Shown: positions 55,446 to 64,000 of the stretch, one piece after another | Layout: every line of letters starts with the position of its first letter | Numbering within the stretch: the first letter of the stretch is position 1 | NCBI GenBank assembly: GCA_001570385.1 | Contig: BBYL01000017.1 | Coordinates: forward strand, 124,001-188,000 | Direction: 5' to 3' | Length of the DNA stretch: 64,000 bases | From: Microtetraspora glauca | GTDB lineage: Bacteria > Actinomycetota > Actinomycetes > Streptosporangiales > Streptosporangiaceae | The notes under the pieces: generated by a model | Told to the model about the DNA's origin: nothing | Databases searched by the model: none | The model's input: the letters and a program-made list of their open reading frames with translations, nothing else | Made by a program: the position numbers and the translations under genes

Positions 55446-56111
55446 TTATATGGCGACGGCCAGTGTGTAGACCACGGCGAGCGCGAGCGCGATCCCGGAG
55501 GCGTGCAGCCGGCACGACAGGCTGGGCCTCAGACACAGGGCGCAGATCAGGCCGAGGGCGACCGCCGCGGTGGTGGCCCACTCCCAGGTCGGGGGCACCG
55601 TGCCGTTGATCCGGTCCAGGTAGCTGTCCACGACGTCGATGATGAAGAAGACGGCGAGCCCGCCCGCGGCGGCGTCACCCCACACGCCGCGCAGTCGGGT
55701 GAGCGAGGCCAGCACGCCGCTCAGCACCATGAGGAACAGCAGGCGGTTGAGCGAGTCGGCGGCCACCCCGTCCAGCGGGGACTGTCCCCCGAAGATCGCC
55801 GCGCCCAGGATCCGGGAGATCATCAGGCCGAACGCGGTGAGCGCGCAGTTGACCAGCGCCCAGCCGAACCCGAGCGACAGGCGCCCGGCCAGGATCACCA
55901 CGGCCAGGTAGAGATAGGGGTCAGCGGCCGCGAACACCTGCGCGGGAGCACGCCCGCCACCCAGCGCGGCGAGCGCTCCGACGACCACGCCCAAGGCGAG
56001 TCCGAGCAGCATGTCACGCTGGATACGGCGTTCCCACCGTTCCAGGTCGGCGAAGTCGCCGGGCAGTCCGCCCGACATTCGACGCCGGAACTTGTCCAAG
56101 GCCACAGCCAC
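55446..56111 (-). CDS. Integral membrane protein of unknown function
   Basis: A protein of about 221 residues with a short polar N-terminus (ALDKFRRRMSGGLPGDFADL, then ERWERRIQRD) and six or more membrane helices (LLGLALGVVVGALAALGGG, YLYLAVVILAGRLSLGFGWA, LLFLMVLSGVLASL and later ALALAVVYTLAV). I recognise no named family. The start is uncertain: GTG at 56111 has GGGGGA at good spacing, and an ATG at 56129 has no ribosome-binding site. It is divergent from the acyl-CoA dehydrogenase gene across about 115 bases and lies 80 bases from proS. Confidence 0.75.
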   Translation of the reverse strand: MAVALDKFRRRMSGGLPGDFADLERWERRIQRDMLLGLALGVVVGALAALGGGRAPAQVFAAADPYLYLAVVILAGRLSLGFGWALVNCALTAFGLMISRILGAAIFGGQSPLDGVAADSLNRLLFLMVLSGVLASLTRLRGVWGDAAAGGLAVFFIIDVVDSYLDRINGTVPPTWEWATTAAVALGLICALCLRPSLSCRLHASGIALALAVVYTLAVAI

Positions 56112-56194
56112 TCGATCCCCCGAAATCATACGAAAGTGGCAATAGCGAGTATATATCCACCCCAAAACAGGACAAAATACTCCCCAGGCCAGGG

Positions 56195-56219
56195 ATAACA
56201 AGCAACCGCTTGTTATGCT
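56195..56219. promoter_or_regulatory. Perfect palindrome overlapping the acyl-CoA dehydrogenase promoter
   Basis: ATAACAAGC-AACC-GCTTGTTAT (56195-56216) has perfect nine-base arms. Its right end overlaps the -10 hexamer TATGCT (56214-56219), which leaves seven bases to the GTG at 56227. A TetR-type repressor bound here would block transcription. Confidence 0.75.
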
Positions 56220-56226
56220 GCCGGGC

Positions 56227-57207
56227 GTGACCTCAACTGATGAACTGCGCGAGCTGCGCGCCGCCGTACGATCCTTCCTCGACGCCCACCCCGGCGCGGC
56301 GGACCAGGCCGCATGGCACCGGTTCGCCGGAGAGCTCGGGGTCGCCGGGCTCGCCGTCCCCGAGGAGTACGGCGGCGCCGGCTGCGGTCTCGCCGAAGTG
56401 GCGGTCGTCTGCGAGGAGATCGGCCGGGCCCTGTCCCCGCTTCCCTACCTTCCCACCGCCGTGCTCGCCGTATCCGCGATCAACGAGTCGGGAGACGACG
56501 AGGCCAAGGAGCGGCTGCTCCCCGGCATCGCCGACGGGACCGTGACGGCCACCGTCATCTTCCCCGGCGACGCCGAGCTCACCCTGGAAGGGGGACGCCT
56601 GAGCGGCGTCGCGCCGTACACGCTGGAGGGGGACGTGGTCCTCGCCTACGTCGGCGACGCCCTGGTCGAGGCGGTCCCCTCCGCTCGCAGGCCGCACGTC
56701 ACGATGGACGAGACCCGCCCGCTGGTCGAGCTGACCTTCGACGGCGTTCCGGCCCGCCGGATCGGGGACGCCGGGCCGTGCGACCGGGTCCGCGACCTCG
56801 GCGTCGCCGCCCTGGCCGCCGAGCAGGTCGGCGGGGCGGCGCGCTGCCTGGAGTCGGCCGTGGACTACGCCAAGCAGCGGCACCAGTTCGGGCGTCCGAT
56901 CGGCTCGTTCCAGGCGATCAAGCACAAGCTGGCTGACATGCTGCTCCAGGTGGAGTCGGCCAGGTCGGCCGCCTACCAGGCCTGTGCGGCTCCCGCCGAC
57001 GAGTCGCCGGTCTACGCGGCGATCGCGGGGTCGTACTGCACGGAGGCGTACCTGGCGGCGGCCGGGGAGAGCATCCAGATCCACGGCGGCATCGGCGTCA
57101 CCTGGGAGCACGACGCCCACCGCTACTTCAAGCGCGCGACCTCCGACGCCCAGCTCTTCGGGCCGCCGCAGGCGCACCGGGCACGGCTGGCCCAGACCGT
57201 GCTCTGA
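56227..57207 (+). CDS. Acyl-CoA dehydrogenase, short subunit type
   Basis: A flavoprotein of about 326 residues that oxidises acyl-CoA to enoyl-CoA. The N-terminal helical domain is TSTDELRELRAAVRSFLDAH, then GVAGLAVPEEYGGAGCGLAE; a reduced middle beta domain lies around 105-200; the C-terminal four-helix bundle carries YAKQRHQFGRPIGSFQAIKH and QIHGGIGVTWEHDAHRYFKR. At this length and with a reduced middle domain it resembles subunits of heterotetrameric dehydrogenases used on sterol-ring or other bulky acyl-CoAs, though no partner is adjacent. I favour the GTG at 56227 (leaderless); an ATG at 56215 lies inside the operator palindrome. Confidence 0.88.
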   Translation: MTSTDELRELRAAVRSFLDAHPGAADQAAWHRFAGELGVAGLAVPEEYGGAGCGLAEVAVVCEEIGRALSPLPYLPTAVLAVSAINESGDDEAKERLLPGIADGTVTATVIFPGDAELTLEGGRLSGVAPYTLEGDVVLAYVGDALVEAVPSARRPHVTMDETRPLVELTFDGVPARRIGDAGPCDRVRDLGVAALAAEQVGGAARCLESAVDYAKQRHQFGRPIGSFQAIKHKLADMLLQVESARSAAYQACAAPADESPVYAAIAGSYCTEAYLAAAGESIQIHGGIGVTWEHDAHRYFKRATSDAQLFGPPQAHRARLAQTVL

Positions 57208-63868: not shown

Positions 63869-63896
63869 TTGCGCCCTACCAAGCGCTTGCTAAGGT
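63869..63896 (+). promoter_or_regulatory. Promoter with a FadR/KstR2-like palindrome
   Basis: TTGCGC (63869-63874) and TAAGGT (63891-63896), 16 bases apart, make a plausible -35/-10 pair. Between them ACCAAGCGCTTGCT (63878-63891) contains the perfect palindrome CAAGCGCTTG and fits the published KstR2 pattern AnCAAGnnCTTGnT. A TetR repressor is the likely binder. Confidence 0.6.
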
Positions 63897-63936: not shown

Positions 63937-64000
63937 ATGAGCACCGACGCGGCCCGGCTGATCGCGCCGGACACCGTACGTCCCGCGTCGCACGGCCCCG
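63937..64000 (+). CDS. Truncated CDS at the right edge, family unknown
   Basis: The ATG at 63937 follows AGGAGGA (63921-63927) by nine bases, and the frame stays open to the edge. Only MSTDAARLIAPDTVRPASHG and one further codon are visible, too few to name a family. The FadR/KstR2-like operator just upstream hints at acyl-CoA or related lipid metabolism, but that is inference from the operator only. Confidence 0.55.
   Translation, partial: MSTDAARLIAPDTVRPASHGP

Follow-up and report, generated by a model that had tools for sequence, protein, structure and literature searches.

A palindrome at an acyl-CoA dehydrogenase promoter of Microtetraspora glauca as a probable KstR2-type operator with six-base spacing

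The acyl-CoA dehydrogenase promoter

The window, which is the whole stretch of 64,000 nucleotides analysed here, carries an acyl-CoA dehydrogenase (ACAD) gene with a palindrome at its promoter, a divergent gene, and a further site and gene near the window end:

55446-56129, minus strand: divergent gene, a membrane protein by eye from its translation; start at 56129 placed by eye
56195-56216, no strand: palindrome ATAACAAGC-AACC-GCTTGTTAT, putative operator, six-base (n6) form of the KstR2-type site
56199-56212, no strand: putative conserved operator core CAAGC-AACC-GCTTG, from the orthologue comparison
56214-56219, plus strand: likely -10 element TATGCT (TANNNT), placed by eye; all four genus members retain GCTTGTTATGCTGCC
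56227-57207, plus strand: acyl-CoA dehydrogenase (IpdE2-like) with GTG start, probably leaderless, from NF050027, PDB match and frame check
63878-63891, no strand: canonical two-base-spacer site ACCAAGCGCTTGCT, 0/10 mismatches to AnCAAGnnCTTGnT
63937-64000, plus strand: start of an HsaB-like flavin reductase gene that continues past the window end (L119 2937-3584)

The palindrome was perfect, with 9-base arms and a 4-base centre, and read on the plus strand. A search of the window with up to three mismatches returned it as the sole match, and 100 shuffles returned none. The preliminary description, made from the sequence alone, had placed a perfect palindrome at the promoter of the ACAD gene, and this proved real at 56195-56216; it had extended the span to 56227, and the last 11 bases (56217-56227) turned out to be the run-up to the first base of the GTG. 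CAAG and CTTG are separated by six bases, as had been claimed, and the inverted CAAG/CTTG half-sites expected of a KstR2 operator are present.

Read from GTG 56227, the ACAD protein has 326 residues. It scored 241 bits against the NCBIfam model NF050027 (IpdE2), under the equivalog cut-off of 450, and is thus called IpdE2-like and not IpdE2; its best PDB match was Tcur3481 (E 1.1e-37). IpdE2 is one half of the IpdE1-IpdE2 enzyme of the steroid C/D-ring pathway (PMC8708139), and since IpdE2 is its best match, the ACAD may act on a related ring acyl-CoA.

An alternative ATG at 56215, inside the palindrome, is in frame here. Because this ATG is out of frame in the sister genome G003, while the GTG start was retained in 4/4 genus members, the GTG start and a leaderless message are favoured; this frame check across the genus supported the earlier suggestion of a leaderless gene, and we regard the ACAD message as probably leaderless. 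The preliminary description had also let the palindrome overlap the -10 hexamer. TATGCT, placed by eye, does share the last three palindrome bases and lies at a plausible leaderless distance from the ACAD start, but a consensus promoter scan at the palindrome detected no plus-strand promoter, only a minus-strand one at 56175-56148, so that this part of the description held by eye and not by the scan. The minus-strand hit is a promoter-like site of the divergent gene. The palindrome stops some 20 bases short of it on the upstream side, so the divergent gene (55446-56129) might be co-regulated.

Conservation among orthologous promoters

An ACAD match at E <=1e-40 was present in 46 of 60 genomes; 30 loci were compared, and 9 of them, with the own gene counted, were taken as orthologues at >=66% identity. 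The core CAAGC-N4-GCTTG stood exact upstream of the ACAD gene in six of these nine (G000, the genome under study, to G003, G006 and G028), 27 to 43 bases 5' of the aligned start, and with one mismatch in two more (G030, 34 bases, and G018, 142 bases before the aligned start), whereas a recognisable site was absent upstream of the ninth, G031. The exact core was found in none of the other 21 ACAD loci; one of these non-orthologue loci (L032) had a one-mismatch match 486 bases before the aligned start. One-mismatch matches within ACAD coding regions were left out of these counts.

Within the genus (4 genomes), CAAGC-AAMC-GCTTGTTATGCTGCC was retained, whereas in place of the left ATAA of the palindrome the three sister species have GTGG, ATAG or ACAT. 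This variation indicates that the perfect 9-base arms are partly luck and that what is conserved is the core together with the -10 element, not the whole palindrome. The ACAD site of G028 reads AACCAAGCGATCGCTTGGTT; G006, G028, G030 and G031 have a further site, CCAAGCGAGCGCTTGG, in front of a luciferase-like oxidoreductase gene 3' of the ACAD gene. As a search pattern, exact AACAAGC-N4-GCTTGTT was discarded as too narrow (2/60 relatives; control 0).

Counts within the own genome were far less telling. The inner 18-mer AACAAGC-N4-GCTTGTT occurred exactly once in the 9.27 Mb genome. The same-spacing search of the genome that had been recommended failed to separate signal from control: at two mismatches it gave 5 places and the reversed control 7; the exact core likewise showed no excess (8 vs 27), and the two-base form with up to one mismatch gave 201 vs 184. 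Motif counts in the own genome were dropped as evidence because they did not clearly exceed the reversed control, and since own-genome abundance proves nothing, the case for the palindrome rests on conservation between genomes. A core no commoner than its reversed control is compatible with a chance palindrome or a protein-free RNA hairpin. We consider this extremely improbable, given that the core was retained in 8/9 orthologous promoters although the flanks differed in large part, and that a leaderless message would contain almost no palindrome sequence. The repressor family and operator class are well supported by sequence: the palindrome is most probably a true, conserved KstR2-type operator of the six-base form, unremarkable in kind and informative in detail.

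Comparison with published KstR2 sites

The KstR2 motif printed by Kendall et al. (2010, PMC3068626) is AnCAAGnnCTTGnT, with a two-base spacer; nine sites are given. The window site fitted this motif at best with 1/10 mismatches while its real half-sites lie six bases apart, and it is therefore not an instance of the printed form. Against ACCAAGC-N4-GCTTGGT, which is a yardstick of this analysis and not a published definition, it showed 2/14 mismatches and matched. The nine published sites showed 0, 1, 1, 1, 1, 1, 1, 2 and 3 mismatches of 14 to the same form, so that 8/9 fitted at <=2 mismatches and 7/9 at <=1; since they represent three promoters in each of three species from two genera, the nine cannot count as independent. 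In M. tuberculosis the three sites, all positive in the gel shifts of PMC3068626, had 1, 1 and 2 mismatches. The R. jostii ro04652/04653 site, ACCAAGCGATTGCTTGGT, is a perfect six-base fit with one mismatch to the two-base motif; in the same source it is predicted only and lies outside the gel shifts. Random 26-mers built around a perfect two-base site reached <=1 six-base mismatch in 0.4% of 20,000 trials. The fit of the published sites, ro04652/04653 included, places six-base spacing within the published repertoire of KstR2.

Both spacings occur near each other: the six-base palindrome, the two-base site at 63878 and a two-base site in the promoter of the candidate repressor gene described below. 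The 63878-63891 site lies 45 bases 5' of the flavin reductase gene, whose product scored 179.5 bits on the HsaB model (cut-off 230). G024 and G212 contain sites that match both spacing forms. A reading of two-base sites as two overlapping six-base sites was considered; several of those in G000 fitted the six-base form poorly (3 to 6/14 mismatches).

KstR2a, the candidate repressor

Four KstR2-like genes were found in G000, on contigs C17, C9, C18 and C23. We use the name KstR2a for the C17 protein and its relatives and KstR2b for the C9 and C18 proteins and theirs; both names come from this analysis. The first lies beyond the window:

G000:C17:194824-195402: KstR2-like TetR gene, here named kstR2a, 14.6 kb downstream of the palindrome

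The closest named solved structures to KstR2a were those of M. tuberculosis KstR2 (4w97, E 1.3e-50; 4w1u, E 1.4e-50), with the next TetR at 2e-21. Its top PDB match, 2ibd (E 4.7e-54), is labelled only as a possible transcriptional regulator; we take it to be Rhodococcus KstR2. KstR2a shares the stretch ILSGSLYHHF, presumably the recognition helix, with M. tuberculosis KstR2, and it scored 22 bits on the KstR model (cut-off 280). The KstR2a clade comprised 46 tree rows with an SH-aLRT of 97, in a quick tree whose deep fork is unresolved. Identity to M. tuberculosis KstR2 was 53% for the C9 paralogue vs 46% for KstR2a, and a reading of KstR2a as the plain orthologue was dropped because the C9 paralogue is closer.

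The kstR2a gene lay on the same contig as the ACAD gene, within about 60 kb, in 9/9 orthologue genomes. Its promoter in G000 contains a two-base site with 1/10 mismatches and a degenerate six-base site with 3/14. The site CAAGNNCTTG lay some 100 bases or less from the probable GTG, placed by eye, in 7/12 genomes (G000, G003, G006, G030, G100, G127 and G179), and no site was found near kstR2a in the other five (G024, G078, G098, G116 and G126). The KstR2-flavoured TetR operator of the preliminary description is thus supported, backed by the palindrome core, the linked KstR2-like gene and the ILSGSLYHHF stretch. We consider it highly probable, from sequence comparison, that the palindrome is an operator of the KstR2-family TetR repressor KstR2a.

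The motif across the family

ACCAAGC-N4-GCTTGGT occurred exactly in 49/200 family genomes and the reversed pattern in 4. A KstR2-like gene was present in 49/49 motif-bearing genomes vs 100/151 others (Fisher p 7e-8, with genomes counted as independent). These data bear on a rival reading, in line with the distinct-spacing repressor of the preliminary description, in which the palindrome is recognised by a protein from a different repressor family whose spacing is six bases. The shortness of the CAAG half-sites and a spacing unlike the printed KstR2 consensus speak for such a protein; the KstR2-like gene in every motif-bearing genome, the six-base form contained in published KstR2 sites, and the two spacings found near the repressor and its likely targets make it very unlikely. 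The call for a repressor with a distinct spacing was too strong, for the candidate is itself KstR2-like and published KstR2 sites include the six-base form. KstR2a thus stays the preferred repressor.

In 24/30 loci the motif lay at the start of a gene that matched an enzyme query: luciferase-like oxidoreductase in 15, alcohol dehydrogenase in 5, acyl-CoA ligase in 2, EchA20-like hydratase in 1 and thiolase in 1; the remaining 6/30 matched none of the eight enzyme queries. The labels alcohol dehydrogenase and ABC permease are our assumptions, given by eye. Since most queries came from site-bearing neighbourhoods, with L047 and L048 matching themselves, the figure of 24/30 characterises the regulon without testing it independently. 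In a set of 55 non-identical CCAAGC-N4-GCTTGG sites, the first spacer base was a purine in 97% of half-sites, giving the extended consensus ACCAAGC-RNNY-GCTTGGT; its A outside CCAAGC follows from the selection, most of the loci having been retrieved by a pattern that included it.

The composite operator of G212, ACCAAGCAAGCGCTTGGT, precedes hydratase, CoA-transferase-like and FabK-like genes, an order that we take, by eye, to be echA20-ipdA-ipdB-ipdC. NCBIfam placed the hydratase above the cut-off (PRK07938), the CoA-transferase and FabK matches were weak and below it, and the third gene had no match.

Two further places in G000 carry KstR2-type sites. The fourth KstR2-like TetR, encoded at the C23 locus (L006 4656-10120), has a two-base site of its own, and L006 also has a six-base site, AACAAGCAATAGCTTGGT, between permease-like and luciferase-like oxidoreductase-like genes (labels by eye). 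On C7, two KstR2-type two-base sites at 823695 and 823759 (L161 8690-8775) lie 64 bases apart, between divergent enoyl-CoA hydratase and acyl-CoA ligase genes.

KstR2b and the echA20-ipdA operator

The second type of KstR2-like gene is represented twice in G000:

L209 18899-19519 (G000 C9) and L247 (G000 C18): KstR2b paralogues with a changed recognition stretch

This stretch reads GGSLYYHF in 16/17 KstR2b loci and AGSLYYHF in 1. An ipdA homologue was found in 21/21 chosen genomes with an echA20-like gene adjoining (gene names given by eye). In 13/13 genomes with KstR2b, the echA20-ipdA promoter carried TAACAA(A/G)YGTT(T/A)GGT; in 8/8 genomes without it, the site there was of the CAAGCAAGCG type. 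Among these sites, that of G140 is truncated where the examined sequence ends, and G098 and G126 have CAAG, not CAAA, as the left half. Operator type and KstR2b presence therefore agreed in 21/21 genomes, counted as independent, eight of which had their operator read with KstR2b status already known. Upstream of 16 KstR2b genes, some of whose starts may be wrong, a 300-base stretch contained no CAAG/CTTG, CAAA/TTTG or TAACAA-type site; it is thus co-occurrence that ties KstR2b to the TAACAA-type operator.

In G000, the echA20-ipdA-like pair (C32, L217 11340-11390) has TAACAAATGTTTGGT in place of a CAAG/CTTG site. A palindrome upstream of the C9 gene, GACGGGGC-N6-GCCCCGTC, was noted as a possible site of this paralogue, and the G000 echA20 promoter lacks it.

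The ACAD palindrome could alternatively belong to one of these other KstR2-like proteins of the genome, either the C23 TetR, which has the same SGSLYHHF stretch and a AGCAAGCACTTGTT site upstream, or KstR2b on C9/C18, which is closer than KstR2a to M. tuberculosis KstR2 in identity. We regard this as unlikely. A C23-type match was absent from G001-G003 at E <=1e-25, yet the ACAD site is kept there, and KstR2b has the changed stretch, pairs with TAACAA-type operators in all 13 genomes and has no CAAG/CTTG site in the upstream regions scanned. Assignment of the palindrome to KstR2a remains preferred.

With less confidence, and leaning slightly against it ourselves, we put forward that KstR2 of this family has diverged into a pair of repressors, each with a code of its own: CAAG-type sites for KstR2a and TAACAA-type sites at echA20-ipdA for KstR2b. 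The lack of TAACAA-type sites upstream of the KstR2b genes and the counting of related genomes as independent speak against it. Under such a split, KstR2a would keep SGSLYHHF and read CAAG-type sites at both spacings, the palindrome included, while KstR2b (GGSLYYHF) would have taken the ring-opening operon echA20-ipdA. The side branch left to KstR2a would consist of the IpdE2-like dehydrogenase and the flavin reductase, with luciferase-like oxidoreductases in relatives. In G000, KstR2b seems to have taken over the ring-opening operon. A literature search, made on partial texts and with KstR2 structure and effector papers outside it, returned no account of a KstR2a/KstR2b split or of the six-base form as such.

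Discussion

In the model that we favour, the ACAD gene would be kept off by a KstR2a dimer that sits on CAAGC-N4-GCTTG and so covers the -10 region and the start of the leaderless message. Accumulation of a CoA thioester from steroid C/D-ring breakdown would release KstR2a, and the ACAD gene, the flavin reductase gene at 63937 and kstR2a itself would then be transcribed. The effector of KstR2 in Actinobacteria is HIP-CoA (PMC5380842). KstR2a may respond to HIP-CoA or to a related compound, given that the ring-opening operon of G000 seems to be under KstR2b. Binding, repression, the -10 element and, above all, the ligand are what we infer for KstR2a.

The KstR2 operators of Mycobacterium and Rhodococcus in PMC3068626, like the palindrome, have inverted CAAG/CTTG half-sites in promoter regions, and the system likewise combines a TetR protein having the same recognition stretch with a site in its own promoter. 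The R. jostii ro04652/04653 site listed there shares the six-base spacing, whereas the printed motif has a two-base spacer and ACC/GGT flanks and the palindrome has half-sites six apart and AAC/GTT flanks. KstR2 is known as a switch of genes for degradation of the last steroid rings. Its HIP catabolic regulon comprises echA20, ipdABC, fadA6 and fadE genes (PMC6593523 and PMC5380842). Our data resemble it in the IpdE2-like target and in the G212 composite operator before genes read as echA20-ipdABC, but differ in that the ACAD falls below the IpdE2 cut-off and that echA20-ipdA of G000 has a different operator. Unlike that regulon, the neighbourhoods here include luciferase-like oxidoreductases, an HsaB-like flavin reductase and lipid-transfer-type thiolases. 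KstR, which represses the upper cholesterol pathway, is also a TetR repressor of steroid catabolism; its motif, TnnAACnnGTTnnA, is unlike the palindrome (PMC5348764).

These results suggest ACCAAGC-N4-GCTTGGT, a palindrome of 18 bases, as a better description of the KstR2 site, the printed 14-base motif being one way to read it; the 18-base description would sharpen searches for steroid regulons. KstR2a and KstR2b, as a paired change of recognition stretch and operator, may offer a test case for how TetR repressors acquire new specificity. The comparison also suggests KstR2-type control in this family, in addition to the mycobacteria and rhodococci on which the motif is based.
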